Shown here in pieces: positions 5,946 to 61,984 of a stretch of 64,000 nt of DNA. The notes beneath the pieces were generated by a model. The model searched no databases. It had not been told where the DNA came from and was given only the letters and a program-made list of their open reading frames with translations. Position numbers and translations under genes: made by a program. Source of the stretch: Aradus depressus (Eukaryota > Arthropoda > Insecta > Hemiptera > Aradidae); assembly GCA_963662175.1 (NCBI GenBank), contig OY759214.1, forward strand, positions 75,652,037-75,716,036. Direction: 5' to 3'. Numbering within the stretch: the stretch's first letter is position 1; each line of letters opens with the position of its first letter.

Positions 5946-6174
5946 TTACTTTCTCATAATACTTTATCATTATAAAAATATTTTAAAATTGCGGCAACTT
6001 AAGATATTTTGGTTGAAACTAGGTTTTGGAGGCTTAATTTTTAACCTTTATTATTGATCTTTATTTTTCGGGTGCACCTTGCGGTTGTGCAACATCACCC
6101 GTTTTAATCTAACAGACTATTTCACAGGTTGTCAAATAAAATATAGTCTGACCTCTCACAGATTTTTATTAGTG

Positions 6175-6217
6175 GTAGCTAGCCGGCTTTCGAGGTTTCC
6201 CTCATCATCAGGCAGTC
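6175..6217 (-). ncRNA. Hammerhead-like motif in FB1, left arm
   Basis: On the minus strand: intact CTGATGA, one extra T, hairpin GAGG-GAAA-CCTC, GAAA, palindromic AGCCGGCT, A, GCTAC. Core nucleotides match the hammerhead consensus apart from the extra T between box 1 and helix II. Confidence 0.45.
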
Positions 6218-6285
6218 CACAAAAGTAACCATCCTTAATATAATATAAAGGCAATTGTTTTATATTAAGGATGGTTTCTTTTGTA

Positions 6286-6330
6286 GGCTGCCTGATGGTG
6301 AGGGAAACCTCGAAAGCCGGCTAGCTACCA
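6286..6330 (+). ncRNA. Hammerhead-like motif in FB1, right arm
   Basis: CTGATGG box, hairpin GAGG/CCTC with GAAA loop, GAAA, then the self-complementary AGCCGGCT followed by A and GCTAC. GTAG upstream can pair with CTAC downstream across a bulge (helix I). The last base of the first box is G instead of the required A, so this copy is probably inactive. Confidence 0.45.
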
Positions 6331-6594
6331 CTAATAAAAATCTGTGAGAGGTCAGACTATATTTTATTTGACAACCTGTGAAATAACCACTTCTCACTAC
6401 ATCAGCCATCTTCATACTAACAGACTATAATCAGTTGTATTTTTTTTAATATTAGAAGACAGTCACAACTTTGGTATTTTTGTTCCACCCTAATGGCCAC
6501 CCCCCCTTAATTCAGATTTATAAGAATTTTCCAATTCAGAAGACTCTGAATACTGAAAACTGTGAAACATATCACAAGAAGTATATCAACTTAC

Positions 6595-6782
6595 CATTCA
6601 AGTCAGAGGTCAACGGGAGTAAAACTTCATCAAAAGACCTGGTGAGAAGATGTTGGAGCTGTCCCAGTGTGTGCGACCATAGATAGGAAGTGTCTTCAGC
6701 CAGTTTGGGGAGACTTTCTGAAGCTCTAGTCACACCCCGGCTACATTCTTCGTTCGTCCAAAGCATCCCGCCTGCCCCTAAT
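6595..6782 (-). CDS. Prominin-like gene, exon e (end of TM2, start of first large extracellular loop)
   Basis: A 188-nt exon from a pyrimidine-rich acceptor (ttttctccttctacag/) to donor AATG/gtaagt. Its first nt completes the Leu codon split at the end of exon d, and it ends in phase 1. The 62 residues run LGAGGMLWTNEECSRG, then an amphipathic helical stretch with AEDTSYLW and LLTRSFDEVLLPL. Insect prominin-like proteins follow TM2 with a T/S-N-E/x segment and then ...EDT..YL..T......LL...F.E....L, which this matches by eye. Intron d-e is 831 bp. The following exon must start with two nt; I could not find it in 1-6590. Confidence 0.8.
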
Positions 6783-7047
6783 CTGTAGAAGGAGAAAAAA
6801 TAATTCAGCAAATGTAATAATAATAAAAAGAACTAATTTATATAAAATATATAATAGATATAAAAAGTAGAAACAAAGAAGAATTCAATAGATCCAGGAA
6901 GATGAAATAGAAAAAAATAAATAATACGATGGAGGTAGGAAGGAGAAAAAAGAAAGAATTTAACAGATATAGGAAAAAGAAATAATACCAGGGTGGTAGA
7001 AAGAAGAAAAAAGAAAGAAATTAATACAGATTGCAAATATGAAACAA

Positions 7048-7452
7048 AAATCTATCTGTCCTTCAACACGATAATTAACAATAAAATGAATGCATCGACA
7101 AGAAATTTCATATTTGAAGTCAAAACCGAATGAGGACATAACCTGTCAAATTTCAGCGATATCGGCTGAGAAGGGAGGGCTTAGGGGAAAGGCTCAATTC
7201 AAAAACCCTAATAACTGCCGATGTAACGAATTTATCGACACAAAATTTAGTGTGAGGATTTAAGAGCCCAAACGTAAGTCATCTATTGAATATTAGCGCT
7301 AACAGTCGGCTGGTTTTGGAGAGGGGGCGAAAAGTTATTTGATTTATAAAAGGTTCGGAAAACATTAATTTTTTCGAAAACTCAACATCGAATTTCTGAT
7401 AGATTTCATAAGTTCCCTTACACTTTGTATAGCTGGGGCAGTAAAATCTGAC
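7048..7452 (+). repeat. R1 fragment plus inverted R1 head
   Basis: 7048-7345 reads as the central and 3' part of R1 on the plus strand. 7346-7452 reads as the R1 head in reverse, ending TTTGTATAGCTGGGGCAGTA. It lies between prominin exons d and e. Confidence 0.7.
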
Positions 7453-7613
7453 AAATGTAGGCAGGAGTACGATAAGCGATCACATCCAAATTTTTTCCTA
7501 AACAAATTTCTATAGGGGGGCCTCCTTCAAATGAAAAGCCCCAAAAACTGCAGATCCATCACTGACATTAACAATTATTTTATATGAAGTACTTAACTTT
7601 ATCTTTTACTTAC

Positions 7614-7795
7614 AAAAGTAAAAAGAGAATAATGTGTAGTAGAAAAACGAGGGTGCGCCTCTTGCAATTAGGAGCACAAGTACGTTGGGGGGCGGCTCGA
7701 GCTGCACATAAATTGAGGGTCATGATAGGCACGATGAGAGAGAAGATGACAGCCAGGAGGAGCAGAGTGAGGAAGCCAGCTTCCATCTCGAGCAC
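7614..7795 (-). CDS. Prominin-like gene, exon d (TM1, Cys loop, start of TM2)
   Basis: A 182-nt exon from acceptor ctgttgtcag/ to donor TTTT/gtaagt, starting in phase 0 and ending with two spare nt. Its 60 residues begin VLEMEAGF. TM1 is about residues 8-28 (LTLLLLAVIFSLIVPI and following), then a short cytoplasmic loop with Cys at residues 30, 40 and 44 and a basic patch (CKRR), then TM2 (TLVFLLHIILFLL). The E-A-G before TM1 and the Pro inside TM1 are prominin hallmarks. The loop has fewer Cys than the usual prominin Cys-cluster, which suggests a divergent paralogue. Read unspliced, it looks like a small membrane ORF closed by a stop just past the donor; the splice-phase match to exon e argues against that reading. 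Confidence 0.8.
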
Positions 7796-8274
7796 CTGAC
7801 AACAGATAACTGTTATTGACAATATCACCCCAAGGAATGGGCCTAGACGAGCAAGACTTTAGCTAATAATAACTTTATTAGGAGCAGGAACATCTAACCG
7901 AAAGTTATTCTATCTATGCCTCCGGAATAATTATTCAACTATATGCCATCCTTAGTAGGATGGGATATGGCAAAACAGAACTCCCTTGCTATAAACAAAC
8001 CCACAAAATAGCTGATGGATTGTGGTTAAATAATAGATACATATTAGAAAACAACTAGTAAATTATTTATTAACCCATTTGTTAAATAATTATATAAACC
8101 TATTTATTATATGTAAATTTATATTTTATTTTATTTCTATTTTTTTTATTTAATAATAATAAATATTTATTTTATTTAATAATAATTGTGATAATAGATT
8201 GTGATTTAAGTCATGGCGTGATTTGGATGAGTGAGATCTCCAAGTTGAATGAGCACACAAAAAAAAAAGGTACC

Positions 8275-8720
8275 TACTGTTTTTTTTAAAAACTTATATT
8301 TTATATGCCCAAAGAAGAGTGGCTACGAAGACAAAATACTCATCTAAATTTAAGAATTAGTTTATGATAGAATTATTTGTAAAAGAAAATAAACCTAATA
8401 TTTTGTTCTGAATCCTATTATATTCATTTCCGCTGTCAACTAAAAAAAATACCTTCGAATTTTTTTTTTTTTTTTAATTTTGCTAATTATGAAAATTTGT
8501 GGTATCCTAGAATTATATTTTTTATGAAAATCCTAGCAAATTAATCACAAATGATTTTTTTAATACATGTGCTTCCTCACGTTCTTTTCTCAAAATTGAG
8601 TCATAATGTTTATATTTTTATTATTAAGACCCTTTTCGGAAATTACTATAGAAACCAAAATTTCATATAAGGCCAGCTTAAAATTATATCTACAGAAAAT
8701 GTTGTAATAATTATTTTTAT
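8275..8720 (+). repeat. R3 dispersed repeat
   Basis: Same order of blocks as 3840-4920 (AATAAACCTAATATTTTG, ctgtcaac, ACCTTCGAATT, ATCCTAGAATTATAT, GACCCTTTTCGGAAA). Confidence 0.65.
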
Positions 8721-8729
8721 TTATTATCA

Positions 8730-9270
8730 CCACAATATATAAATATAAAATTCTTTGATTACTATTAACTACTAGAAAATTATTTAACTATAAGCCATCC
8801 TTAGTGTTACTACGAACGAAGTCGGCCATAATTTTACAGACTTCATAAGGATCTGGTATTTCTTGACTATCTTGATAAAAATAAAACAATATATTCATGG
8901 CATGAAATTGCGAGGATGAAGAGTAATGATGTACTTTTATTATACATTAACAGCTGCCTCTAGAACACCAAATGATCCCCGGTTAATTTATGTAGATGAT
9001 ATTCTTGTTATTTAGGTTCCGACCTCTTGGAATAACTTCTGAAGTATAAAATGAAATGACTCATTTGGTGTAAAGATTATAGCGCTTTTGTATGAAAAGA
9101 AAACTATAACTGGAAGTTATCTCTATGACCTTCCGCTCCTGGTCCCTATCGACCTAGATCGAGCTAGATTATAGCGATGGGATTAACTTGTTCCCTCATA
9201 ATGTTCATTTTTTATAAATTGAGGAGAATGTTAGAGGGCTAGCTGCGTCTGTGGAAGGTAAAACTAAAAA
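8730..9270. other. Unassigned intronic sequence
   Basis: No exon or known element. An attatttaactataagccat block near 8775 resembles 7930-7950. Confidence 0.25.
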
Positions 9271-9274
9271 AAAG

Positions 9275-9365
9275 GCAGGTGTGCCTCACCCACATAAGCG
9301 CACGGTTTAAATGAAACTTCTTTTGTCTTCATTTACCATGCGAATTAAATAAACAAAATAATATG
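9275..9365. repeat. R2 short dispersed repeat, copy 1
   Basis: Shares CCTCACCCACATAAG, then AAACTTCTTT and TCTTCATT, with 12498-12590. A partial match (AGAAGTGAAACTTCTTTCG) occurs at 28600-28620. Confidence 0.6.
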
Positions 9366-9967
9366 TGAAGGGCTTAGTTCCAAAGTCCACTTTTGTAAAT
9401 TTTGAGAAAACAAATAACTCTCCAGGTGCATGAATATTCAAAAAAATAGAAAACACTATATTTGGCGTATTGCTGATGGAAATAACTTAATTTCTGTAGT
9501 CCGGCTACTTTTTGTAAGTGAATACACACAGAAAACGAAAAAAAATGTTTGGACTTAGCCGGTTTTGAAAATAAACAACTTGGACTTAGCACTTTCCAGA
9601 AAAAATAAATGAACTTAGCCGGGTTTGAAAATAAAATAAGAATTTATTCAATTTTGTAGAAAAAAAAGTATGCGAAATCCTTAAAGTCACGGTATAATGG
9701 GTAGATTTACCATATTAGATTCAATACTTTTCATCATAATATGTGGAATCCATTTTAGAAATGAATTCTTGGACTTAGCTGGTTTTGAAAATCAAATTTT
9801 TTAAAACTACATTTTTTTTAATGTTCGTTAAGAAAACATTTTTTTTTCGACTATCTTTGTTACTATAAGTTGGGAAATATCTCAAAAAACATTTTCCTGA
9901 AATATCTCAGATTTTTATTTGTTTGGCCTCCTGGGTCGTTCATAACCTGGCCTAATACTTCCAAGTG

Positions 9968-10046
9968 TATCTTCCAGTTTACATGTGTAAATTGAATTAA
10001 ATTAATTTTGAATAGAAAAATTTTAATCAATAATTAAAATTTAATC
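9968..10046. repeat. R4 repeat, copy 1
   Basis: AGTTTACATGTGTAAATTG and the following 55 bp are nearly identical to 13562-13638. Confidence 0.65.
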
Positions 10047-10049
10047 GTC

Positions 10050-10590
10050 GAGCAAATGCCCAGGAAGTTTGCCGCCGTCTCGTCTTCTTCCCCACATCTA
10101 TCACTATTTTGCCTATCTATTCTTGCAAACTGTTGCTCTCATTCCTGACCTTTCCCCTTTGGTGGCATTAGTGATACAAGGCGACTCAGCGCTTTACTGA
10201 GAGACCACACTGTGGCGGGGCTAGTGTTCTGATGAGTCCTAGTTGATCCCCTCAAGACTTCAAAGCCCAGAAAGTCAGGGCAAGAGCCCCTCTTCTAGTT
10301 TGAGTCTTTAGAAATAGACTCCAGCTCTCTGTAAGACCTTGAATGCTCAACTAAGGGACCGAACAAAGGGCTCGTGTTCACAACCTTATCCCTCTACAAC
10401 GAAATTGTGTCTTCTAAATCATCAATGGGTAGGAATTGTAGTATATTTGATGTCCACAGTACACGAGTTAAATGGGAAAACGAGAAGTGAGGGTTGATAT
10501 GTAATAAAATGAATATTTTAAATTAATAAAAAGTTTAATGTTAAATAAAAAATATTGATAATGACTCTAATAATTAATAAATATATCATT
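10050..10590. other. Unassigned intronic sequence, moderately GC-rich
   Basis: 10060-10440 has higher GC than its surroundings, but all frames contain stops and no motif was recognised. Confidence 0.2.
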
Positions 10591-10594
10591 TTTT

Positions 10595-15792: not shown

Positions 15793-16042
15793 AGAGGGCG
15801 CCATTAGCTCAGAGGTAGTGTGCTGTGCTCAAGATCGCGGGTTTGAAACTCGGCCGGGGCCCTTAGGTTTTTTATCTGGTAGGTGAAAAAACCTTGAGCA
15901 CGACGCTCAAGAATAAACAAGAGTATGAAAAGTTTATTTTACATCCCAGATAAAATAAACTAAGGGCCTCGGTCGGGTTTCGAACCCACGATCTTGAGTT
16001 CAGAAGGCAAGCACGCATACCATTGAGCTCTAGGCGCCCTCC
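15793..16042. mobile_element. Two SINE-A heads in inverted orientation
   Basis: 15793-15905 is a plus-strand SINE-A head (A-box-like TTAGCTCAGAGGTAG, B-box-like GGTTTGAAACT). 15930-16042 is a minus-strand head ending gcgccctc. Only about 25 bp separate them, and the tRNA-like 5' ends face outward, giving a foldback of two SINE heads. Confidence 0.75.
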
Positions 16043-28867: not shown

Positions 28868-28935
28868 TTATTGAACCTTGTGCTGACGATGGCGTAAGCC
28901 GAAATCGATACACATTTATATATATGTTTGTGGAA
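28868..28935 (+). ncRNA. Hammerhead-like motif, best-preserved copy (FB3-related)
   Basis: TGTG (28879-28882) pairs with CACA (28911-28914) as helix I. CTGACGA core box at 28883-28889; one extra T at 28890; helix II GGC/GCC closed by GTAA (28891-28900); GAAA at 28901-28904. Self-complementary ATCGAT at 28904-28909, then A at the cleavage-site position (28910). The layout matches a type I hammerhead with a dimer-only helix III. The extra T is the one departure from consensus. No second arm is visible here, so this is a solo half-element. Confidence 0.55.
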
Positions 28936-31668: not shown

Positions 31669-32218
31669 TTTTTTTTTTTTTCTATTGGTTCGGATTTGAA
31701 AACCCAAAGCAGAAAGTGGTCGCCAAAAATTCGCAGACCCGTTACTGTGAACCATTCTGGAGCTAGAGGCGGCCGCACGTTATTCACAAAGCTCTCAGTC
31801 CCTTTGTTCAAATCTACTCCTGAAGAATTCTCAATTTAGAGACTGGAACTTCTTCATTTCAATTTATCATGCAGAATTCAGCGCAATATAAGATTAAAGC
31901 ACCTTTAAGTCGTGCTCCACACCTATAATAATTAAATTTCGTGGTAATTTTGAACGTGGAAATCAATCATTCTTTGCCCATTTTCCCTTCGTATTACTCT
32001 CATTTTCATATTCCGGCATTCCAATCTCTTATGATGTGGGGCTATTCATATTCCGCCTTATTCTTCCTTCTCTTATCCTGTAGAATCCTTATATATCCTT
32101 TTGTTTGATTAAACTCCTTATTTTCTTTTTAAACCATAATTTATCGCAATTGCAATAAACCAATAATATTTTTCAAATAATTTTTTAATGTATATCATCA
32201 GCATACATTACATCATAA
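31669..32218. other. Unassigned sequence
   Basis: 31700-31840 is open on the plus strand without a recognised domain; the remainder is AT-rich. Confidence 0.2.
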
Positions 32219-33704: not shown

Positions 33705-34050
33705 TTACTTTCACGAAATTTAATATGAGGAGTCGCTATGTAACTAAACTATTGATAATTCTCATAGAGTGGTTCATCCCACCCATACAGCACAGCGGTT
33801 AAAGGACAACTGTCCGCTGTGCTGTGTGGGTGGTATGAAGCTGATGATGACGTTGTTGCGTTTAAGACCGGTTCAGGTCTAAAATAAAACAGTGGGCATA
33901 CAACATCTTTTATTTCTATGAGAAATCTCGTCCCACATCTTACTATCACATATGAATTGATAATTAGTCCAAACTCTCCTTTGGTTTTGGAGGGAGAGAG
34001 AAAACTTAGATGATTATTTCATATTTGGGAAATAAAATGCTGGTGATTCC
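33705..34050 (+). repeat. R1 3' end split by an FB2 insertion
   Basis: R1 sequence (TTTAATATGAGG, AACTATTGATAATT) continues after the insertion with AGTCCAAACTC and ends GGGAAATAAAATGCTGGTG. Confidence 0.8.
33761..33955 (+). mobile_element. FB2 foldback element, left arm mostly deleted, 10-bp TSD
   Basis: ATTGATAATT occurs at 33751-33760 and 33956-33965 and is the R1 target sequence. The element keeps a short left arm end (CTCATAG), an inner hairpin (ACAGCACAGCGG and its complement), a CTGATGATGACG motif, ACCGGTTC, TTTATTTCTATGAG and an asymmetric tail of about 35 nt. Confidence 0.85.
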
Positions 34051-36864: not shown

Positions 36865-37563
36865 TAGGAATGTAAAACAATCGATAGTTCCGATACAATC
36901 GGTGTTAAACTATCGATAGTTTAGGAACTATGTATTTCTGGGATCGAAGGAAGGTTACATTTACAGTTCTTGTAGAGTGTTTGGTTGCTTTGAACTGAAA
37001 ATTTACTATTCTTGTACCGTGCTTTGTTGTTTTGAACTGAAAAATGAGTCGTAAACGGAAGTCCGATGTGTGAAGTTACTTCGATAAGGATGTGGGTCCA
37101 AAAAAAACTGGCTACATGTCGTTTGTGCAGTGTTGAATACAGAACTTCCGGGAACACATCCAATTTGAAGGATCACTTATTGAGAAAACATCACAGCGAT
37201 TACAACGGCAACGCTTTGTGCACACCTACAGATACAGAAGAGAATAGAAGTAGTGGAAGTGGAATTAGTTTTTACTTGAGTTCAACAAAAACATATGAAA
37301 AAAACTCCGAGAGATACAGGATTCTCTTGAATCGGATTGTTTCATACATAGCAATTGATTTTCAACCATTCAGCGTAGTCGAATTCGTAAAAGAAATATA
37401 GGTAGTTACACTGTAGGACATCTTGTTTATTTGTCTTCCTTAAATTATTTACATGGTACATGTGTGCATATACATGACCATAATGACTTGATGTCACTTC
37501 TACTTTTAAAAAAATTTCGGCATTACTATCGAGGATATTGCCATCGATAGTTTTACACCCCTA
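36865..37563 (+). mobile_element. hAT-type element remnant with BED finger and 8-bp TSD
   Basis: TIRs TAGGAATGTAAAACAATCGA and, reversed, TAGGGGTGTAAAACTATCGA. Flanks CTATAGGC (36857-36864) and CTGCAGGC (37564-37571) agree at 6 of 8. Inside, on the plus strand, is a degraded transposase start from about 37042: a stop, then a frameshift, then a BED-finger-like CRLC...SGNTSNLKDHLLRKHH and a VSYIAIDFQPFSVVE block typical of hAT transposases, closed by a stop at 37400. The catalytic domain is deleted. Confidence 0.8.
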
Positions 37564-37595
37564 CTGCAGGCTCTCTCTGTATCTACACTTCTCAT

Positions 37596-37824
37596 ATAAA
37601 TAAAAAACGTTGCCTTCCCACAGTTTTATTTTAGACCACAACCGGTTTTCGACGCAACAGCGGGCAGTGGTTCATCCACACAGCACAGCGGTGTAAAGGA
37701 CAACTGGCGACCACCGCTGTGCTGTGTGGGTGTGAAGAACCACTGATGATGACGCTGTTGCGTCGTAAACCGGTTCTGGTCTAAAATTAAACAGCGGGAA
37801 GACAACGTTTTTTATTTCTATGAT
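37596..37824. mobile_element. FB2 foldback element, two-armed copy
   Basis: Arms 37596-37695 and 37726-37824 pair through AAATAAAAAACGTTG, GACCACAACCGGTTTTCGACG and the inner ACAGCACAGCGG hairpin. The right arm has CTGATGA at 37743-37749, helix II GACGC/GCGTC with TGTT loop, and ACCA (37739-37742) able to pair with TGGT downstream of ACCGGTTC. GAAA reads GTAAA here. Confidence 0.8.
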
Positions 37825-38221
37825 ATATTTTATTCTTTGATTTTTTTATTAATAAAATACTCAAATAAAAAAATAAATGTTATAATCAATTATATCACTT
37901 TTTTTTCTTGCTTTGGCTGGTGCGTCATTAGCTCGTTAATGAATGATACAGTGTTTAAAGAGAGAGATCTTTATTCGCCATCTTTTATTCTCTCAATTGA
38001 ATCATGTTTTTTTATTCGTAATTTATTTTATTATCTTGCAGTTTAATTTCCTTTTTTTATTTATGCTTTATGCCCTTTGGTGGTCTACTAACAAAAATAA
38101 TTTTAATGACTTACCGAGAAACCATTCTCCCATTTTACTCAACCGCAGACAGATAATTTCTAAATTTTATTTTTTATTTTTGTTATTTTTCAGTTATCTA
38201 TCTGAACTTTAAATGATATAA

Positions 38222-38432
38222 GGGAGGCGGTAGGTAGTGTGCTGTCTACTGAGCTCATGATCACTGGTTCGAAACCCGGACGAGGCCCTTTGGGACCATC
38301 CGAAGGTTGGCGTGCTAAAGTTTATTTTACCTCCCAGATAAAATGAACTAAGGGCCTCGTCCGGCTTTCGAACCTCCGAACTTGAGCTCAATAAGCAACC
38401 ACGCATACCACTGAGCTACCGGCGCCCTCTCA
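38222..38432. mobile_element. Second inverted pair of SINE-A heads
   Basis: 38222-38300 is a plus-strand head (GGTTCGAAACCCGGACGA) and 38301-38432 is a minus-strand head ending ACCGGCGCCCTC. As at 15793-16042, the 5' ends face outward. Confidence 0.8.
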
Positions 38433-39173: not shown

Positions 39174-40713
39174 TATGCCGTGTTTACACTATGTAGCAAA
39201 ACAGGTATATTGCCGAGCAATGTAGCTGTGCTACACATTTTTGAAAACGCCACCCGAAAACAGCAATACTGTTATACAGCAATATAGTTCAATTCAAGAG
39301 CTATATAGCTGGAAATGAGTTTCCCATCGGTTGTCGGTAAGATCAAAGGGAACTATGCAGCTGAGCTATACAGCCGGGCTGGAAGCACGTCTTTTGTTGT
39401 AGCACAGCTATATAGCTGTCGCCCGAAGACGCTCGTCTGTAGTGTGCTTGCCATCTCGAAGTGAACTGGTTGATTTCATCAAGTACATGCTCATACAGCT
39501 GCTAGAGCTACACAACGAAACGTTTTTAGTCATAGCTACATAGCTCTTTTTAGTCAAAGCTATATAGCTCTTTTTAATCATAGCTAGCTACATATATTGC
39601 TCAGCTACATATAGCTCGGCTATATAGCTGTCGCCCGAAGACGCTCGTCTGTTGTGTGCTTGCCATCTCGAAGTGAACTGGTTGATTTCATCAAGTACAT
39701 GCTCATACAGCTGCTAGAGCTACACAACGAAACGTTTTTAGTCATAGCTACATAGCTCTTTTTAGTCAAAGCTATATAGCTCTTTTTAATCATAGCTAGC
39801 TACATATATTGCTCAGCTACATATAGCTCGGCTATATAGCTGTCGCCCGAAGACGCTCGTCTGTAGTGTGCTTGCCATCTCGAAGTGAACTGGTTGATTT
39901 CATCAAGTACATGCTCATACAGCTGCTAGAGCTACACAACGAAACGTTTTTAGTCATAGCTACATAGCTCTTTTTAGTCAAAGCTATATAGCTCTTTTTA
40001 ATCATAGCTAGCTACATATATTGCTCAGCTACATATAGCTCGGCTATATAGCTGTCGCCCGAAGACGCTCGTCTGTAGTGTGCTTGCCATCTCGAAGTGA
40101 ACTGGTTGATTTCATCAAGTACATGCTCATACAGCTGCTAGAGCTACACAACGAAACGTTTTTAGTCATAGCTACATAGCTCTTTTTAGTCAAAGCTATA
40201 TAGCTCTTTTTAATCATAGCTAGCTACATATATTGCTCAGCTACATATAGCTCGGCTATATAGCTGTCGCCCGAAGACGCTCGTCTGTAGTGTGCTTGCC
40301 ATCTCGAAGTGAACTGGTTGATTTCATCAAGTACATGCTCATACAGCTGCTAGAGCTACACAACGAAACGTTTTTAGTCATAGCTACATAGCTCTTTTTA
40401 GTCAAAGCTATATAGCTCTTTTTAATCATAGCTAGCTACATATATTGCTCAGCTACATATAGCTCGGCTATATAGCTGTCGCCCGAAGACGCTCGTCTGT
40501 AGTGTGCTTGCCATCTCGAAGTGAACTGGTTGATTTCATCAAGTACATGCTCATACAGCTGCTAGAGCTACACAACGAAACGTTTTTAGTCATAGCTACA
40601 TAGCTCTTTTTAGTCAAAGCTATATAGCTCTTTTTAATCATAGCTAGCTACATATATTGCTCAGCTACATATAGCTCGGCTATATAGTTTTGCTACATAG
40701 TATAAACACGGTA
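39174..40713. mobile_element. TIR element carrying a 212-bp x 6 tandem array
   Basis: Termini CCGTGTTTACACTATGTAGC and, reversed at about 40690-40712, CCGTGTTTATACTATGTAGC, each flanked by TA, so a TA-target DNA element is likely. Most of its length is the array described separately. No transposase. Confidence 0.8.
39407..40678. repeat. 212-bp tandem array, six units
   Basis: GCTATATAGCTGTCGCCCGA recurs at 39407, 39619, 39831, 40043, 40255 and 40467, and GCTATATAG once more at 40679, with exactly 212-bp spacing. Units are virtually identical (one visible difference, TCTGTTGTG against TCTGTAGTG in the second unit). The unit is full of AGCTATATAGCT-like palindromes. Such uniformity means recent amplification or assembly-sensitive sequence. 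Confidence 0.97.
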
Positions 40714-42785: not shown

Positions 42786-43053
42786 CGCACATTTTAAAAA
42801 AAGTACAGCTTACCAAGTAAAAAAGGTTAATTACACAGTACAAAATGATAAATGCACAGTAGAATGCAACTCTGTAAATAAAATTTTAACCCAATAACTA
42901 AAAACGTATTGCCTAGTAAGTTAATCGAATAACATGGGTAATAAGGCGTAGTAGGAAATTTGAGAACACTCGGTAAAAAACTTGAATTTATTGCCGTGAG
43001 TGTAAATTTTATATAATTTATCGTTTCCAGATTTACTTTGTGAAGCTCCATTC

Positions 43054-43645
43054 TAGGAATAGATAATTAAAATACACAATTTCTTTGTCAAACTTCACTT
43101 TATATTCTCAAATACTCAACTAGTTTCGCCGTGTTAAGGCATTATCAAGAGTCACTTACAAACTGACAGAATTGGTTGACAGGGTAGAAGGTACAGTTAT
43201 GGAGGGTTTTTTTTTAGGTAATGACGGAGAATCCCTTGTTTTTGTTACTCTATACATTCCAATAAACAGATATTTACAAGATAATAATAAATATAAACAT
43301 AAAAAAGAAAATATATATATATATATATATAAAATCTAATAAATACTGTTAGATTCGCTTTATTAGATTATATATATATATATATTTTCTTTTTTACGTT
43401 TATATTTATTATTATCTTGTAAATATCTGTTTATTGGAATGTATAGAGTAACAAAAACAAGGGATTCCCCGTCATTACCTAAAAAAAAACCCTCCATAAC
43501 TGTACCTTCTACCCTGTCAACCAATTCTGTCAGTTTATAAGTGACTCTTGATAATGCGCCTTAACACGGCGAAACTAGTTGAGTATTTGAGAATATATAG
43601 TGAAGTTTGACAAAGAAATTGTGTATTTTAATTATCTATTCCTGT
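43054..43645. mobile_element. FB4 foldback element
   Basis: A near-perfect palindrome: arms about 43054-43330 and 43368-43645 around a TA-rich centre. Each arm holds the motif ACTC, TTGATAA, TGCC...GGC, GAAA, ACTAGT, T, GAGT. Box 1 reads TTGATAA instead of CTGANGA. No ORF and no clear TSD. Confidence 0.85.
43541..43590 (+). ncRNA. Hammerhead-like motif in FB4 with altered core
   Basis: ACTC (43544-43547) pairs perfectly with GAGT (43581-43584). The box TTGATAA is at 43548-43554, GAAA at 43571-43574, palindrome ACTAGT at 43574-43579 and T at the cleavage-site position. Relative to CTGANGA, positions 3 and 8 are changed C to U and G to A, which keeps their Watson-Crick pairing. The mirror copy is at 43112-43155 on the minus strand. 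Confidence 0.4.
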
Positions 43646-43649
43646 AAAT

Positions 43650-44115
43650 TTTATAACTGTGAATAATATATTTTCTACTCAACTGTAATTAATATTATTA
43701 TATAATTCGACGAACAGCCTAATTTATTTATCGTAAATATATCCTTTTTACACTGCCCTTGTTCTTTTTTACTATTCGTTAAATATTATTCAACTAGCAT
43801 TTAATTTATTTACTGTGAGTATATCCCTTTTTACTGGGCGTTTATTTTGTTTACCAAACGTTAAATATTATTCTACTAGCATTCAATTTATTTACCGTGA
43901 GTTTCTTTTATTTTACTATTCGTTTACTTTTTAATCGCGTCATAAACTTATTACTCTGAATATAATCTTGTAAATGTGAATTAATTTTGTTACTGTGAAT
44001 AATAAGTTCTCTACTTTAGTATTAAATAATTAAAGTTTACTTTAACTACTGTGCAAAACTTTTTGCTACTGTGCATTTCACCGTAAATGTTTTTCGAATG
44101 AGCCCCATTTTATTT
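43650..44115. other. Unassigned AT-rich sequence with short recurring phrases
   Basis: Phrases such as tttaccgtgagt / tttactgtgagtatat and attcgttaaatatta recur every roughly 60-100 bp (43735-43930), suggesting an old diverged tandem repeat. They continue the composition of 42790-43050. Confidence 0.4.
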
Positions 44116-47114: not shown

Positions 47115-47190
47115 GGTCCAAGCAATATTTATTTTTATTTACGTTTCGACCTCTTATGGGCCATTATCATCAGAAACGATTGCTTATAAA
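47115..47190 (-). ncRNA. FB5 hammerhead-like motif
   Basis: On the minus strand: AAGCAAT, CTGATGA (47167-47173 reversed), helix II GGCC/GGTC, GAAA, ACGT palindrome, A, then an A/T-rich loop and ATTGCTT, which closes a distal 7-bp helix I. A family unrelated in sequence to FB1-FB4. Confidence 0.4.
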
Positions 47191-47221: not shown

Positions 47222-47346
47222 ATAAATTTAATTATATTAAGGATGGTTACTTTTGTAGACTGTCTGATGATGAGGGAAACCTCGAAAGCCAGCTAGCTAC
47301 TTCTAATAAAAATCTGTGGGAGGTCATACCACATTTTATTTGACAA
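47222..47346 (+). mobile_element. FB1 solo arm
   Basis: TATTAAGGATGGTTACTTTT through GTCTGATGATGAGGG, CGAAAGCCAGCTAGCTAC to ATTTTATTTGACAA. The box CTGATGA is intact but the GCCAGC helix is no longer self-complementary. R1 sequence begins at its right end. Confidence 0.75.
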
Positions 47347-49435: not shown

Positions 49436-49538
49436 TTATTTCTTTCCCTTTATATCAATTTTTTCGATAGGACTAACTGTTTTTGCGTAAATCCAGTAAT
49501 CGTCCAAATAAATAGAAATTAAAACGTAATTTTACTAT

Positions 49539-49886
49539 TTCACAGGTTGTCAAATAAAATATAGTATGACCTCTCAAAAATTTTTATTAGAAGTAGGTAG
49601 CCGGCTTTCGAGATTTCCCTCATAATCAGTCAGTCTACAAAATAAACCATCCTTAATATAATATAAAGGCAACAAAGATAAATATATTAAATTGTAAAAA
49701 ATTAATTTTGTTGCCTTTATATTATATTAAGGATGGTTTCTTTTGTAGACTGCCTGTTGATGGGGGAAACCTCGAAAGCCGGCTATCTACTTCTAATAAA
49801 AATCTGTGAAAGGTCATACTATATATTATTTGACAACCTGTGAAATAATAACTTCTCACTACATCAGCCATCTTCATATTATTTTC
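49539..49886. mobile_element. FB1 foldback element, copy 2
   Basis: Arms 49539-49672 and 49712-49847 plus the same asymmetric tail as copy 1 (CACTACATCAGCCATCTTCA). ATTTTACTAT is found at 49529-49538 and 49887-49896. In the right arm box 1 is CTGTTGA and the left arm is also mutated, so both motifs look decayed. Confidence 0.8.
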
Positions 49887-50539
49887 ATTTTACTATGGTT
49901 TTCAGCACATATTTGGCAAACCGGACGACTTGGCAAAAAACCTATTACATGTACCTATATAAAATGAGCATTATTTTTATGTCTCTTTTATTTGAAAAGA
50001 TTTTTTATTAGGTCGTCTAAGCAGTATTTTAATTACTGTACATGCCCAAAAAGACAAACAGACACAAAATGTATTCAGGGGACACTAATATTCCGTTGAA
50101 AACTCAAAAGAAAGTGTCAAGTATTGAACAATAACATATTTCCATTGTAATAAATTTCAAAAAAAATTGGTCGGATAAATAATAATTTTTTTTGTTGTTA
50201 TCTACCCCTATAAATAGAAGCTTCACTACTGATTAAGCCTGTCACATATCCTGTTGTTGATCCTGTCTGTTTAACGTTGTTTCAGACTTAAAATGAGGGT
50301 AAAGGTTATCATTTAGGACTCAGGAGCACCCCCTCCGTTACCTTCTGAATACTAAACAGCTAGTTCATGTTAGCTACTGAAATATCAGCTGTATCTTGCT
50401 TATTATTCATCGAGTGTGGTATCACTTGAATTTGCCGCATGAAAAACGAATTTGATGCTCTCAGAATCTTCCTGGTGTACTTTTTGAGTAATGAATACTC
50501 AAACTTTGTATTATGTAGTAGGTCGAACTGTATTTACTC

Positions 50540-53442: not shown

Positions 53443-53950
53443 AGCAGCGGGAGTCCCAGGTATCTTGCATTGTGGAGCGGGAGTCCCTGGTATCCTGCAT
53501 TGGGGAGCGGGAGTCCCTGGTATCCTGCATTGGGGAGCGGGAGTCCCTGGTATCCTGCATTGGGGAGCGGGAGCCCCTGGTATCCTGCGTTGGGGAGCGG
53601 GAGTCCCTGGTATCCTGCATTGGGGAGCGGGAGTCCCTGGTATCCTGCATTGGGGAGCGGGAGTCCCTGGTATCATGAATTGGGGAGCGGGAGTCCCTGG
53701 TATCCTGCATTGGGGAGCGGGAGTCCCTGGTATCCTGCATTGGGGAGCGGGAGTCCCTGGTATCCTGCATTGGGGAGCGGGAGTCCCTGGTATCCTGCGT
53801 TGGGGAGCGGGAGTCCCTGGTATCCTGCATTGGGGAGCGGGAGTCCCTGGTATCCTGCATTGGGGAGCGGGAGTCCCTGGTATCATGAATTGGGGAGCGG
53901 GAGTCCCTGGTATCATGAATTAGGGAGTGGTGGTGGTTCCTGGTATCCTG
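53443..53950. repeat. 30-bp tandem array, about 17 units, with 210-bp higher-order period
   Basis: Unit TATCCTGCATTGGGGAGCGG then GAGTCCCTGG. Sixteen full units lie at 53461-53940. Variant units recur 210 bp apart: CTGCGTTGG at about 53585 and 53795, CATGAATTGG at about 53675 and 53885. Because 30 is divisible by 3, five frames stay open for 150-200 codons of perfect decapeptide repeats. I do not call these proteins: there is no start context, codon bias or domain. Confidence 0.95.
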
Positions 53951-54974: not shown

Positions 54975-55075
54975 GTGTTTTTATCTCAACGATGTTTCGG
55001 GACGTTCTTAAGCCTCATCATCATATTCATCCCTAAGCCCCATCACCATATTCATCAGGTCCCAATGTAACTATA
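54975..55075 (-). ncRNA. FB6 hammerhead-like motif, decayed
   Basis: On the minus strand: TGATGATGAGGCTTAAG, CGTCCCGAAACATCG. The first box has A in place of C and the short palindrome is ACAT, not ACGT. A 40-bp segment around it is tandemly duplicated (CTAAGCCTCATCATCATATTC and CTAAGCCCCATCACCATATTC). Confidence 0.35.
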
Positions 55076-55171
55076 ACAATATATGAAAAATAATATATAG
55101 ATTAATCAATTATGAATGAATATATAAAAAAGCTTCTAAGTTGAGAAACGCGGACATATTGTGGAAACTTG

Positions 55172-55693
55172 TAATAAATAAATAAAACACTTATTTTTGA
55201 AATATTGTCTATTCCACTAAAGATATATATACATATATAACTACCGGTTTCGGCTTTATACCATCGTCAGGTCTAGTTATGAACTAAGTCAGTTTGCAGG
55301 GAGCGACCCTTCAAATACATCTCAGGTCAAAGGGTGCTATTAAAACTTGGGAGTCCCCCGGCTGTACCGTTAGCTAACTCATGAAATATTTCTTAACAAA
55401 ACCTAGTTCTGAATTAACATAAATTAGTCTAGTGACATTGGTTTATGTTAATTCAGAACTAGGTTTTGTTAAGAAATATTTCATGAGTTAGCTAACGGTA
55501 CAGCCGGGGGACTCCCAAGTTTTAATAGCACCCTTTGACCTGAGATGTATTTGAAGGGTCGCTCTCTGCAAACTGACTTAGTTCATAACTAGACCTGACG
55601 ATGGTATAAAGCCGAAACCGGTAGTTATATATGTATATATATCTTTAGTGGAATAGACAATATTTAAAAAATAAGTTTGTTTTATTTATTTAT
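55172..55693. mobile_element. FB3 foldback element
   Basis: A near-perfect palindrome: arms 55172-55424 and 55440-55693, loop about 16 nt. Each arm has box CTGACGA, extra T, helix II GG(T)/(G)CC, GAAA, palindrome ACCGGT, A, GTTATATA. Few arm mismatches suggest a young element. Confidence 0.88.
55592..55630 (+). ncRNA. Hammerhead-like motif in FB3, right arm
   Basis: CTGACGA at 55595-55601, GAAA at 55614-55617, ACCGGT at 55617-55622, A at 55623. GAC before the box can pair with GTT after the A (one wobble), with a distal ATAAC...GTTAT alternative. The mirror copy on the minus strand is at 55240-55275. Confidence 0.45.
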
Positions 55694-56190
55694 ATAAAAA
55701 AGTCTAAATAAATTATAAATGAATAAATAAAACAATATCGTACATTCGACTGACCTTTAAGTGTGGAGGAACTCTACCCAAAAACGAGAAACGAAAGCTT
55801 TGTATCAAATAATGTTTTTTGGATATGAAACATTCTTTTTTTTTTTTTTATTGTTATTTTATTTTTTTTGAACTATTTTATATATATTTGATGAAAACTT
55901 TATTGATATCTGTGGTTATTTATCAGAATCCTTTTCTATACTACTTTTCTAGAATACATATGTTTATTACTTATATACAAGTACATTGCTGCGTGGCGTT
56001 GTCTACCGCGAATTCTGCTGGGCTCCGGATTTCTTCAATATTCTGCTGACACTACGTTAAACTTAATATATGTTTTCACTTTTTTCCTTATTATAGGATC
56101 GTTACATATAATAAAAATTATTATAATGGAACTGACACAAAGTTCCACAACTCACATCTCAAGCAGTTGGGATCTCCAACACATCTACAA
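55694..56190. other. AT-rich sequence
   Basis: Nothing recognised; ORFs are low complexity. Confidence 0.2.
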
Positions 56191-57062: not shown

Positions 57063-57239
57063 TATTTTCTTCATTTTATTACAATATTTAAGCATTTAAG
57101 ATTTAATATTGGTTCATGTATGTAGTTTATAAGCTGTCTTGATGTATTAAGTTACACTCTTATGGTTTAATATAAATAAATAATTTTATTACAGTGGAAA
57201 CACATAATTCCTTCCAATTAAGTTATTAGTTATTTTTGA

Positions 57240-57450
57240 ACTCATGTCCGGGCTTTGATTGCATGATCACACCGCCTACTACCAGAGCGCTCTTCCGCTA
57301 TTTCTGGTGGACATGAGCCCGACTCCACTGTGGGAGTCTCTAAATTTAGCCTACCCAGGTTTAGTTATCTAGGGTAGGAGTCTTTAGCATCTGACATCGT
57401 ACAGGCTCGGGATCGCGCAACTCCCCTTTCGAAGGACGACATGCTCAATT
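57240..57450 (-). mobile_element. SINE-A 3' half, reverse
   Basis: ACTCATGTCCGGGCTTTGAT, CTACTACCAGAGCGCTCTTC and GGACATGAGCCCGACTCCAC. Confidence 0.85.
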
Positions 57451-57832
57451 TCAAATGTTAACTTGCCACATATATTTGTAATTGTGTTTGAAAGTAACTC
57501 TTGAGTGGTTATAAAACCAAGAAACAACAGAGAAAGTTGGAAGTTAAGCCTCAATAATGGATATTTTATGAATGGAGCTGAGCCTTGCTTTATTAAGTTG
57601 CTTAAAGCTCACTTAATTCTTAACACATCTCCAGGGAAATAAGTTAAAAAAAAAAAAAAACTGCTTTCCAAGAATGCATTATATGGCGACTTTCAGAAAA
57701 TTTGAGAGGAAATTAGATTTTTTAATGGATTTTTTCTTTTTTTTAACAATGTCAATTAGTAATGTTGCTTTGTATTCCGGGAAAATCAACCCCAGGGGTT
57801 CTTGCTGCCCCACCCCACTTCCTATTGGCTAA
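57451..57832. other. Unassigned sequence
   Basis: Nothing recognised; an A run lies at about 57646-57660. Confidence 0.2.
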
Positions 57833-57833
57833 C

Positions 57834-58128
57834 TGAGCTCAAAATCACGGGTTCGAAACCATGTCGAATCCTTAGTTCATTTTATCTGAGAAGTGAAATA
57901 AACTTAAGCACGCTGTCCATCGGATAGGAAGTTAAACGATTGTCCCCGAGCTTGTACGACGTCAAGTACTCGTTAAAGACTAGGTGAATAAAATTTAGGG
58001 TAGGCAAAATTTAGGACTACCACAGTAGACCCGGGCTCATGTCCACCAGGCTGACAAAAAATCGCTCTGGTAGTAGCCGATATGATCTTGTAGTTAAAGC
58101 CCGGGGTGAATCATAATAACTAACTAAA
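57834..58128 (+). mobile_element. SINE-A, 5'-truncated
   Basis: Begins CTGAGCTCAAAATCACGGGT (B box GGTTCGAAACC) and ends GTGAATCATAATAACTAAC. Confidence 0.85.
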
Positions 58129-58204
58129 AATGAGAAAGAAAAAAAAATTAAAAATAGAAAAATTAAATAAATAATCTAAGAATATCAATTTAAACCTCAT
58201 TCAA

Positions 58205-59025
58205 TTTACATATGAAATTTAGTGTCAATACATTCATTACAAAGGGAGGGTGTTTTAGAGTTTATGTGTTAAGGGTTCTGGAAACACATATAAAATTTTG
58301 TGTATAAAATTTCGTGTCGATACATTCATTCTATTGGCAGGTATCGTGTTCACAGATACACACACCAACAGACATATTTGTTTCACCCCCAGCTATACGA
58401 GGATAAGTAAATAAGTTTTGTAATCGGTCAAAAAATCGGTGCAGAATTTCATGTTTTCTACAGACACCAAATTTGAAGAAAAAATGTCTAACCGTCTATA
58501 TGTATGTGTCTGCGTGTCTGAGAACATGATAACTCCCGATAGAATGAATGCATCAACACGAAATTGTATATGTAAACGCAGGCACCCTCTAACGACAACA
58601 CCTGTTGATTTTCAGCCAAATCGACCAATGGGGAAGGGGTGGATTAGAAGGGAGACATAACTCAAAAACTCTAATAACTGTCGATGTAATGCATGTATCG
58701 ACTCAAAATTTAGTATGAGAATTTAGGAGTCCCTACGTAGCTACGTACGCGTAGGTCAACTATTGAATCTTAGCGCAAATGATCGACTGGGTTTGGTGGA
58801 GGGCCGAAAAGTTAATTGAATAATTCGATCTGGGTTCATAGTGACCAGTAGAAGGAACGTGGAAGTTTCCCGATGTATTGCAAAAAAATGGCACTTCTAG
58901 ACAAAAACTCCGGAAAAAATCAATATTAATTTTTAGCTAAAATGGTCGATTTTAGAGAAAGATCAAAACCTTAGTTGATAAATTCGCGCTGGGGAAGTAC
59001 ACTTTCCGTGATTCACCGACGACAT
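58205..59025. repeat. R1 pair, reverse then forward
   Basis: 58205-58375 is reversed R1 ending near its head. 58385-59025 is a long plus-strand R1 from CCCCAGCTATACGAGG to GCTGGGGAAGTACACTTTCC, with a roughly 100-bp unrelated insert near 58835-58930. Confidence 0.75.
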
Positions 59026-59745
59026 TTTTATACTGTTAGCACATTTCCTTGGTATTTATTATTTATACAGTTGTATATATTGATGTATTTGTAAATTAAA
59101 AAAAAATATATATTTTTTTATATAACAGAGAGAATGCATAACAAATAAAAAATACTCTCATTTGAACAAGAGTGACAATTTTCCTCTCTATATGTAAATT
59201 TAAAATAAAATAAAAAATTGTTATTGTTATTTTAATTTTACAATTTTCATGGTATAAAACTATTGATATCTTGGTAGCCTAGATTCCAGGGAATTAATTT
59301 TCCTTATTTTTTTTTTTAAATTCCATTCTGCTTGGAAAAGAATGAGAAAATTCTTGGAAATTGTTGTCTGTGTAGAATGTTAATTAACTAATTACAAGGA
59401 CTTTTGAGACCTCACTGAATTTTGTAATGAAGATTGTAAAGATATCATATCATTCACTGAAAGACATCTTGTTAAAAAAAAAAATATTGAGAGGAAAAAA
59501 AGTATATTGCTTTTAGAAATTAGTATCTCAGATCCATTTCTTAAAATGAAATGAATAAGAGAAGGAAAAATGTTGGAAGTCGCAGAGGGAAATAATGTCA
59601 TTAGACAAATGTCATCGGTGAATCCTCCATTGCAAATTATTTGCAATCTCTTTTTCAACTACCTACCTCTTTTGCAATTTGGCTGAAAAGCTTTAGGAGT
59701 GTGCTCAGGGACTTCCTCGAAAATTGAGACCACTTTACTTTCATT
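59026..59745. other. AT-rich sequence
   Basis: No exon or repeat family. 59525-59575 is partly repeated at 59866-59915 (GATCCATTTCTTAAAATG, AATGAATAAGAGAAG), an imperfect 341-bp-spaced duplication. Confidence 0.4.
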
Positions 59746-59749
59746 CTAC

Positions 59750-59848
59750 AGAGATAGCTATAGAAACAAAAGACGTTGTCTTCTCACTGTTTTATTTTTG
59801 ACCAGAACCGGTCTTGAAAGCTACAGTGTCATCATCAGTGGCACATCC
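59750..59848 (-). mobile_element. FB2 solo arm, reverse
   Basis: GCTATAGAAACAAAAGACG, TTTTATTTTTGACCAGAACC, GGTCTTGAAAGC and GTCATCATCAGTGGCACATC. Confidence 0.75.
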
Positions 59849-59915
59849 CACAAGCCTGTCATCATCAGATCCATTTCTTAAAATGGAATGAATAAGAGAA
59901 GAAAAAATGTCTGAA

Positions 59916-60784
59916 GTCACGGAGGGAAATAATTATTCAAGAAAAATGACATTAGTGAAAGTTGTTTGTTATGCAAAAATGAACATTTTTGTTTAGTATA
60001 ACGTTTTTCTGAAAACCAATATTTTCCGAGTTTTTCTTGAAAACCCCCCAGAAAAAAATATTTTTTTGGGGGGACAAAGCGGTAAAAACACGTTTTTTAA
60101 ACAATCCAAAAAGATTAAGCTGATAAATCAATCGCACATAAACATTTTTTGTTTGTAACATTTTTTCCCACAATCTATATTTTCCGAGATATGGACGGTT
60201 TTTCTGCTTCATTTACTGGACTATTGGTATGAGGCTCCTTACATGTTTTCAATAGCTCCAACTACTAATTTATTGAAAAAAGCGAACGGGGATGATAATA
60301 AATTAAAAAATATTGTAATACAAAGCTCTCTACTGCATGAGATTTCGAAAGGTCCTATCGATCCGGTCCGGATCATATCACCATAAAATATGATTTCGCC
60401 CCACTTCCTCCGCTGTCAACTCGGATCTCTCCACCCCCCTTGACAAAATCCAGGATACACAGCTGGATAAAATTGTTGCAAGAATTATTATATTCCGATG
60501 AAATGAACGGACATACATTGGAGATATGTAAATTTGACTCAACATTTGAAATTCAAATATACTTTTTAGTTATTCATTCTGGGATTCACACTTGATTATC
60601 ATTGTTCTCTATCTAATTCCTATTCCACACCTTGTAGATTTTCCAATTTGGAACCGAAGTGTAAGTGGATTTTCAATTATCTGTCTTCTAATGGGAAATT
60701 TTCTATCTGCTTATTCCATCGTACCACTAGACTGTAATCCTAGTAATTTATTTTTCATTTATTTATATTTTTGTTTAATATTAT
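59916..60784. other. Unassigned sequence
   Basis: Mostly AT-rich; no family or gene recognised. Confidence 0.2.
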
Positions 60785-61545
60785 TTAATACTTCCTTCTA
60801 CGAAGTTTAGGATAAGTTATGTAATCAGTCGAAAATTCGATGTTGAGTTTGCACCAAAATTTCATGTTTTCTAAACCATGATTTAAAGAAAAAAAAAAAA
60901 GTCGTTTAAAAAAATTATCTTTTTGCTCCCCCTCCAAAACCAGTCTCCTACAGTTAACTTATATAGGGACTCCTAAATCCTTATAGTAAATTTTGTGTAG
61001 ATAAATTCATTACATTGGCAGTTATTAGAGTTTTTAAATTGAGCCCCCTCCCCCTAACCCCCCTTCCCTTCCGATATCCCTGAAATTTGATAGATTATTT
61101 CCTCATTAGGTTTTGACTATGAAATTATATGTAGATACAATCATTACAACCCCCAATCTCCCCTTTTCCTTAGACTGATTTGGCTGAAAATTGATAGATG
61201 TTTTCCTTATGGGGTTTTGGTCCCACATTGAAAATTTTGTGTCGAGACATTCATTATATTGGTAGTTATTAGAGTTTTCCCCCCTAATCCCCTCTTTCCC
61301 TTTGGTCGATTTGGCTGATGAACAATAGGTGTTGTCGTTAGAAGGTTCTGGGTTCACGTATAAAATTTCGTATCAATATATTCATTCAATCGGGAGTTTT
61401 CGTGTTCACAGTCACACAGACAGACAGAATATTTGGTTTTCCATATTAGGAATCTGGAGATCGGAAAAGATAAAATTCCATTGAAAACTCCGCAACAAAT
61501 TTTTGACCGATTACATAACTTCCCCTATATTTCGTATAGCTGGGG
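60785..61545 (-). repeat. R1, long multi-module copy
   Basis: 60785-60885 is a small plus-strand head. 60905-61545 is a reversed R1 with at least three modules and ends TTTCGTATAGCTGGGGAAAT. Confidence 0.8.
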
Positions 61546-61700
61546 AAATAATGTGCCTGTCTGTCTGTGTCTTCGCTAACTTCCGATAGAATGAATCTAT
61601 CGACACGAAATTGTATATTTGTATACAGATCCTCATAAGGACGACACCTATTATTTTTTACACAAATCGGCCGAAGGAAAGGAGAGATTGAATGGGGGGA
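61546..61700 (+). repeat. R1 module adjoining FB2
   Basis: CGATAGAATGAATCTATCGA and CGGCCGAAGGAAAGGAGAGA. Confidence 0.7.
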
Positions 61701-61830
61701 CACATCATAATGTGTCCATTTAGACTCCATATTGTACGGGTGATGTGCCACTGATGATGACGCAGTTCTTTGAGAGCCGGTTCTGGTCGGAAATAAAACA
61801 GTGGGAAAACAACATCTTTCATTTCTAACA
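61700..61830 (+). mobile_element. FB2 solo arm
   Basis: GTGCCACTGATGATGACGCA, GAGCCGGTTCTGGTCGG and AACATCTTTCATTTCTAACA. GCCA before CTGATGA can pair with TGGT after CCGGTTC (one G-U). Confidence 0.8.
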
Positions 61831-61887
61831 GACATATTAATGTTTTCGCAAAATCTGCCGAAGGGAATGTGGGATTAGAGGAAGAGG

Positions 61888-61984
61888 CTCAACTGTGCCA
61901 CTGATGATGACGCAGTTGCGTTGAAAGTAAATTCTGATCTAAAGTAAAAGAAGGGAAAGACAATATCTTTTATTTCTGTGAGAC
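61888..61984 (+). mobile_element. FB2 solo arm, second
   Basis: CTGATGA (61897-61903), helix II GACGC/GCGTT, then an intact GAAA. The CCGG palindrome is replaced by GTAAATT. Ends TTTTATTTCTGTGAG. R1 pieces flank it on both sides. Confidence 0.75.

Follow-up and report, generated by a model that had tools for sequence, protein, structure and literature searches.

The stretch analysed here, a window of 64,000 nt from contig OY759214.1 of the hemipteran Aradus depressus, contains five foldback elements with arms of at least 71 nt, at 6118-6385, 37592-37823, 43055-43643, 49532-49851 and 55184-55681 (all coordinates are positions within the window, and all motif searches covered both strands). The arms lie head to head, with a strand resembling the hammerhead ribozyme reading outward, and the inverted repeats that they form are nearly perfect, the longest reaching 240 nt at 98% identity. 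A preliminary description of this DNA had listed foldbacks at 6121, 49539, 37596, 43054 and 55172, all of which correspond to these elements, and also at 47222, 28868, 33761 and 59750-61888, which turn out to be single arms or remnants. The foldbacks are very probably solo inverted pairs of pseudo-long terminal repeats (pLTRs) from at least four families of Penelope-like elements (PLEs), or else non-autonomous relatives moved by PLE proteins. A strong sequence pattern would thereby be explained by known biology, with the inverted PLE remnants, a tail found on one side only and the hammerhead tied together.

The core can be written as a strict pattern of CTGANGA (box 1), one further base, a stem of at least three pairs and GAAA (box 2). 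Six matches are present in the window (6211-, 28883+, 47264+, 55270-, 55595+ and 61901+, the sign giving the strand), whereas 40 dinucleotide shuffles average 0.075. All six have T as the inserted base, and the same pattern with either no or two inserted bases finds nothing in the window, which bears out the earlier remark that an extra U follows box 1. These matches are not independent events, because they are drawn from only four subfamilies: FB1 and FB3 with two each, FB2 and FB3b with one each. Tolerating one mismatch gives 14 one-base-insert matches, compared with 2.7 in six shuffles, and in nine of the 14, spread over five subfamilies, a palindrome starts at the last A of box 2, compared with 0.17 in the shuffles. 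With no or two inserted bases the relaxed pattern finds 6 and 2 matches, respectively, where the shuffles give 3.5 and 3.5.

Beyond the palindrome comes one base, never G in any family, and then a strand complementary to the bases before box 1. This full order is kept in FB1, FB2, FB3, the diverged FB3-like copy at 28883 and FB4; the cores of FB5 and FB6 showed no clean fit by inspection. Hence, of the six foldback families to which one ordered core had been attributed, FB1, FB2, FB3 (with its relative at 28883) and FB4 stand, FB5 being partial and FB6 weak, and the shared architecture is real for FB1-FB4. The CUGANGA and GAAA boxes of a hammerhead occur in six perfect copies, each with one extra U; the A15.1-U16.1 pair, H17 and a helix I adjacent to both are present, and helix III exists only as the palindrome, that is, as a dimer. 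In hammerheads as described in PMC10085705, CUGAnGA is separated from the neighbouring stems by 1-2 nt at most, and the spacing to the stem in the window cores is 1 nt. Helix I comprises 2 bp in FB1, 4 in FB2, 3 in FB3, 4 at 28883 and 4 in FB4; at 6 in 16 per pair, the joint chance of finding it in all five subfamilies is about 6 in 100 million, before allowing for the choice of motifs and register. Box 1 of FB4 is TTGATAA, with U3-A8 in place of the C3-G8 pair, a swap reported in natural hammerheads (PMC3088659).

The E values given for individual cores come from a covariance model trained on 40 of 121 distinct phage hammerhead cores and no window sequence, run with filters off. FB1a (6121..6416) has head-to-head arms with a short left tail and a right tail 34 nt longer, and is flanked by an identical 12-mer on both sides, forming the left (CTAACAGACTAT, 6109..6120) and right (6417..6428) target-site duplications. 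Its core CTGATGA-T-GAGG..CCTC-GAAA lies on the reverse strand at 6188..6211 (strict pattern; E 0.0041), and that of the other arm, in which A9 has become G, on the forward strand at 6292..6315 (relaxed pattern; E 0.42). FB1b (49539..49886), again with a short left tail and with a right arm extended by 42 nt, lies between duplications at 49529..49538 (ATTTTACTAT) and 49887..49896; both of its hammerhead-like cores are mutated (49606..49629, reverse strand, E 0.53; 49754..49777, forward strand, E 0.54). FB1c is a single forward-strand arm (47232..47346) whose core at 47264-47287 fits the strict pattern (E 0.0041), with a broken palindrome, AGCCAGCT.

The FB2a foldback occupies 37592..37840, and its forward-strand core at 37743..37768 runs ACCA/CTGATGA-T-GACGC..GCGTC, the palindrome AACCGGTT, C17 and TGGT (E 0.46). 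Box 2 is GTAA in this arm; the opposite arm has GAAA and is without 8 nt around box 1. Other FB2 copies comprise a single arm or remnant at 33841..33923 (forward) and remnants at 59760..59838 (reverse), 61751..61845 (forward) and 61901..61981 (forward), the last with an intact core, CTGATGA-T-GACGC..GCGTT-GAAA (strict pattern; E 0.12). Adjoining FB2a, an open reading frame (ORF) at 37048-37398 encodes a BED zinc finger (Pfam E 1.1e-6) and is perhaps the remnant of a DNA transposon.

FB3 (55133..55690) carries a 42-nt extra tail on its left arm and a short tail on its right; the duplications, picked by inspection, are at 55121..55132 (TATATAAAAAAG) and 55691..55702. Its two cores (55248..55270, reverse; 55595..55617, forward) both fit the strict pattern with an E value of 0.0013. 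The forward-strand core of FB3b at 28883..28904 reads TGTG/CTGACGA-T-GGC..GCC-GAA, followed by the palindrome ATCGAT, A17 and CACA (strict pattern; E 0.00069), and belongs to a single arm with no foldback. The loci at 28868 and 55172 had been assigned to one FB3 family; being only 77% alike over 74 nt, they are better treated as two diverged subfamilies. FB4 (43014..43642) likewise has a longer left arm, with a 40-nt tail, and a short right tail, between duplications at 43001..43013 (TGTAAATTTTATA) and 43643..43655. Its reverse-strand core at 43124..43148 is TTGATAA-T-GCC..GGC-GAAA with the palindrome ACTAGT, T17 and helix I ACTC/GAGT (relaxed pattern); the core of the right arm (43548..43574, forward) has a 2-nt insertion in the stem. 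The partial hammerhead-like motif of FB5 (47144..47173) and the weak one of FB6 (54995..55024) are both on the reverse strand, the former being a single copy. A pairing of FB5 with FB1c as a mixed head-to-head element was considered and rejected, there being no target duplication and no common word longer than 7 nt. The arms had been called unrelated among families, and this holds for FB1, FB3 and FB4, whose arms have no mutual match at the BLAST threshold used.

Applied to the window, the phage-trained model returned 26 matches at E values up to 10. Ranks 1-5 are FB3b, FB3 twice and FB1 twice (E 0.0007-0.0041), rank 6 is FB2 (E 0.12), rank 7 is FB5 (E 0.25), rank 8 (32171-32201) is probably a chance match and rank 18 is FB6 (E 1.6). 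A covariance search with a custom model containing the extra U had been proposed in the preliminary description; the phage-trained model recovers FB3b, FB3, FB1 and FB2, while FB6 is weak and FB4 is absent from the list. The absence of FB4 is expected, because its box is changed, and is nevertheless a miss. The Rfam models found no hammerhead in the window at gathering or relaxed thresholds (E up to 10), so that the companion proposal of a search with standard hammerhead models gave nothing. Rfam matches were limited to microRNA-type ones on the foldback centres and other weak ones, taken as effects of long hairpins.

Four of the five long foldbacks, FB1a, FB1b, FB3 and FB4, have target duplications on either side, which measure 12, 10, 12 and 13 bp, respectively. 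In a control of 3982 random 75-nt pairs, at least 10 common bases were found in 1.8%, at least 12 in 0.5% and at least 13 in 0.25%. The duplications with their flanks are 71-88% AT, the window as a whole being 64% AT. In all four of these elements an extra tail is present on one arm only, measuring 34 nt in FB1a, 42 in FB1b, 40 in FB4 and 42 in FB3. The distance from A9 to the short tail end is 85, 85, 89 and 90 nt in FB1a, FB1b, FB4 and FB3, respectively, and that to the long end 119, 127, 129 and 132 nt. The short tail ends coincide with the loss of likeness between the arms, and are identical in FB1a and FB1b; in FB2, similarity is lost about 77 nt past A9 (a manual count on an alignment of seven copies). 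This common ruler is not a matter of simple recent descent, because the arms of FB1, FB3 and FB4 lack mutual BLAST matches. The predicted ribozyme cut lies, by counting, 22-28 nt past A9.

Lunse, Weinberg and Breaker reportedly described small hammerhead variants of PLEs that undergo cleavage in dimeric form. The anatomy of PLEs as set out in PMC3846280 includes inverted pLTRs, duplications of 8-10 bp where these are present, palindromic head-to-head junctions and an optional tail of about 31 bp at the 3' end of one inverted pLTR. According to PMC11167929, the protein of the anole PLE PAc cleaves and extends both strands and prefers AT-rich targets; the PAc ORF opens at hammerhead stem II, reverse transcription is initiated 111-118 nt inside it, and the 30-40 bp tail corresponds to the interval separating two start sites of reverse transcription. 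The window elements therefore resemble the Pen families of Adineta vaga (PMC3846280) and the Poseidon element PAc of Anolis (PMC11167929) in their head-to-head inverted arms, short and variable target duplications, 30-40 nt tail on one arm and AT-rich targets, and, when read against PAc, in the similar distance of the hammerhead from the reverse transcription start sites. They differ from both in consisting of arms only, without a coding region, and in that several families lie within 64 kb. The minimal PLE hammerheads of PMC6155905 are alike in having CUGANGA, GAAA and a minimal helix III, to which the window cores add U at position 10; the animal retrozymes of PMC7229834 also carry type I hammerheads, with dimer action described in amphibians. 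Because arms, duplications, tails and AT-rich targets match the published anatomy, the elements are filed here as PLE-type insertions by structure. The link to PLE hammerheads with a tiny, dimer-type helix III, drawn in the preliminary description, is thus strengthened by the duplications, the head-to-head arms, the one-sided tail and the fixed distance between ribozyme and tail. The similarity of the A9-to-tail distances in unrelated families supports a published proposal in which reverse transcription of PLEs has two internal start sites.

The formation of the foldbacks fits best with two-sided priming by a PLE protein. Such a protein would cut both target strands; on each strand, reverse transcription would begin at either of two points, one about 85-90 nt and the other about 119-132 nt downstream of A9, and the two truncated complementary DNAs (cDNAs) would meet head to head. 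On this reading, each arm bears a type I hammerhead of minimal size, which has the known extra U at position 10 and a helix III that is palindromic and of the dimer type. The place of ribozyme action would be tandem master transcripts, where two copies could form the dimer helix III, and not the foldback copies.

A self-priming origin of the same PLE remnants, in which one antisense RNA or cDNA molecule was folded back and copied before the hairpin was inserted, is rather unlikely, and it is the route that PMC3846280 prefers for head-to-head palindromes, with priming on an antisense template. The FB1a arms, which from the box onward are identical at all but 1 of 91 positions, agree with it. 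At one site upstream of the box they differ, the first arm matching FB1c there and the second matching the FB1b right arm. Furthermore, the left, short-tail arm extends further inward, and the right, long-tail arm reaches further outward and starts later. Neither arm can be a copy of part of the other, because each is longer at the opposite end, whereas simple self-priming requires one to be contained in the other. FB1a is the only informative element, and its asymmetry could also stem from a later small deletion. The arms of FB1b differ at 9 of 91 positions and FB1a differs from FB1b at 8-9 of 91, for which age or two templates may account. The FB1a arms nevertheless point to a simple way of telling two-sided priming from self-priming in genomic data.

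The inverted arms had also been proposed to act as opposite-strand ribozyme motifs, and predicted folding speaks against this. In whole-foldback folds of FB1a, FB3 and FB4 (one strand each), the arms pair lengthwise and the helix II pairs have a probability of 0. Predicted folds of single arms give helix II a probability of 0.97-1.0 in FB1 and FB3b. The foldback copies are probably inert as ribozymes, because in these predictions the arms pair and bury the ribozyme stem; any dimer cleavage would occur in tandem master transcripts or between molecules.

Several observations weigh against the assignment of the foldbacks to PLEs that carry hammerheads. No flanking word was accepted as a target duplication for FB2a; the FB3 duplication was chosen by inspection, an automatic search having ranked other AT-rich common words higher, and the positions of the long tail ends depend on where the duplications are placed. 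Helix I is just 2-3 bp in FB1 and FB3, and in single-arm folds the predicted probability of helix II is just 0.05 in FB3 and 0.37 in FB4. To these can be added the Rfam result and the absence of FB4 from the phage-trained matches. A PLE reverse transcriptase (RT) motif gave no tblastn match in the window below E 1.7, and neither PLE RT nor GIY-YIG was found among the 10 of 133 ORFs of at least 70 aa that were scanned with Pfam; in these ten only the BED zinc finger was above the curated cut-off, weak matches such as zf-RVT falling below it. Finally, an ATG made from A9-T10-G meets a stop at codon 9 in FB1, 12 in FB2 and 3 in each of FB3, FB3b and FB4, so that the window copies, unlike PAc, carry no PLE ORF across the core.

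The extra U had been considered a possible DNA-level signal of another kind. It is instead a known hammerhead variant, an insertion at position 10. As reported in PMC3705267, the plus-strand hammerhead of Chrysanthemum chlorotic mottle viroid has an extra A10 between A9 and G10.1; C or G at this position is very harmful, and changing A10 to U raises the cleavage rate 3-4 fold. The viroid and the window elements thus share one extra base at the same place, A in the former and U in the latter.

Hammerheads with U at position 10 (U10) recur in IMG/VR contigs, which are taken here as phage, and in Pseudomonas phage LKA1, with the same core and T before stem II. They differ from the window cores in that helix I or III is closed by a loop, in lying ahead of phage genes and in having no retroelement. 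When any inserted base was allowed with a GGCC stem, 58 distinct usable matches remained in IMG/VR after edge and duplicate matches were dropped: T in 51, A in 4, G in 2 and C in 1. A three-helix test (helix I of at least 4, helix III of at least 3) was passed by 48, 3, 2 and 1 of these, respectively. The predominance of U, followed by A, agrees with the viroid kinetics; G and C are nevertheless present. Among the no-insert GGCC-stem matches listed, 110 of 114 pass the same test, and with the longer stem GGCCT/AGGCC, 19 stretches lack an insert and 4 matches have an inserted T. Under a wider, U-only pattern there were at least 178 distinct matches, four bacterial contigs included, of which 137 pass. 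The background of this test is 16% and not zero, because 291 of 1774 combinations still pass when 3' flanks are swapped between loci; under a stricter one-permutation test, 76 of the 178 listed U10 matches pass. In the 137, a set preselected for pairing, all four Watson-Crick pairs occur at each of five positions of helix I, and position 17 is C in 134 of these listed matches.

Shortly upstream of phage start codons, U-insert hammerheads are seen at many IMG/VR loci (e.g. L029, L013 and L001). For 94 of the 137 passing matches listed, the start codon of an ORF of at least 50 aa, with a Shine-Dalgarno-like word, is no further than 200 nt away, the median distance being 42 nt. Ten of 30 listed downstream proteins of at least 120 aa were compared with PHROGs, and eight matched (anti-restriction, FtsK-like, ATPase, sigma-like and unknown families). 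These proteins hence point to no single partner gene, because the matches fall in varied families. By inspection, the LKA1 hammerhead (L308; 1127-1153 of the locus, 1526-1552 of the record) has three helices, with helix I CGGGAG/CTCCCG, C17 and helix III CAGT/ACTG, and lies shortly ahead of early ORF2; it is not annotated as such in its record. Among named phages, one query (L021) matched just a 50-base piece of one phage and another (L147) matched none. A literature text search for the letters of the U10 core together with 'hammerhead' found nothing.

Searches for prokaryotic or phage relatives of the animal elements were negative. A dimer-type pattern fitted 13 stretches in IMG/VR, none like the window elements by eye, one of which (L297) looks like a phage hammerhead; 12 IMG/VR stretches fitted a PLE RT motif and none was confirmed, and four stretches with a similar pattern in bacterial or archaeal genomes, all with prokaryote titles, look by eye like chance matches.

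The phage loci also allow the behaviour of the Rfam models to be compared. At the gathering score, none of eight U10 loci and one of ten no-insert loci (L184) had a hammerhead match; these runs do not discriminate, because the lone match lies at another site than the pattern. In runs judged by E value, no hammerhead was found at one U10 site of L029 (161 nt, E up to 1) or at three of L013 (2 kb, E up to 10), whereas the no-insert sites of L198 (RF03152, 0.0048) and L212 (three of three: 0.0035, 0.022 and 2.6) were matched, all below the gathering score. This contrast, 0 of 4 against 4 of 4 in a small sample, suggests that the Rfam hammerhead models penalise the U10 insert. Standard covariance models thus seem, from these few cases, to miss U10 hammerheads, whose number may be underestimated.

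It is also conceivable, if on balance improbable, that the hammerhead likeness reflects descent only and that the motif now serves the PLE protein as a site for RNA binding or for positioning the RT. PMC11167929 reports that PAc hammerhead mutants insert normally in vitro, that cleavage needs the protein and that no reads ended at the PAc cut site, and many of the window copies are mutated. Such a loss of function sits poorly with the retention of palindrome, H17 and helix I across unrelated arms, and with the 137 of 178 matches listed elsewhere in which the same U10 core passes the three-helix test, compared with 16% for swapped flanks. Foldback DNA transposons, or palindromic miniature inverted-repeat transposable elements, in which a palindrome resembles a hammerhead by chance and acts as a DNA-level signal, would account for near-perfect inverted repeats of this length and are a very improbable source. 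The matching outer ends and fixed-length duplications by which such transposons are recognised are absent: the duplications vary (10, 12, 12 and 13 bp), and the outer ends repeatedly differ by 34-42 nt, which those of matching terminal inverted repeats would not. Moreover, the conserved single-stranded core and the exchange of C3-G8 for U3-A8 fit an RNA. Chance combined with simple-sequence palindromes, which might serve for FB5 and FB6 with E values no better than 0.25 and 1.6, is hardly credible, and the shuffles (6 against 0.075 expected; 9 against 0.17 with the palindrome) rule it out for FB1-FB4 as a group.

With due tentativeness, U10 hammerheads might constitute a widespread, under-annotated subclass common to animal PLEs and tailed phages, a doubtful extension in which U would be favoured for faster cleavage and, in PLEs, might form an AUG from A9-U10-G10.1, so that a single motif, placed at a fixed distance from two RT start sites, would double as start codon and core of the ribozyme. 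The stops that follow this ATG speak against the start-codon idea for the window copies; full-length elements are not covered by that argument.

Other repeats are also found in the window. A tandem array at 39400-40687 comprises 6.1 copies of a 212-bp unit at 99% identity, and a 30-bp minisatellite at 53446-53927, with 16 copies at 96%, is open in several frames on both strands. The inverted repeats at 15823-16003 and 38247-38393 contain a transfer RNA-like word of the GGTTCGAAACCC type and are possibly related to short interspersed nuclear elements.

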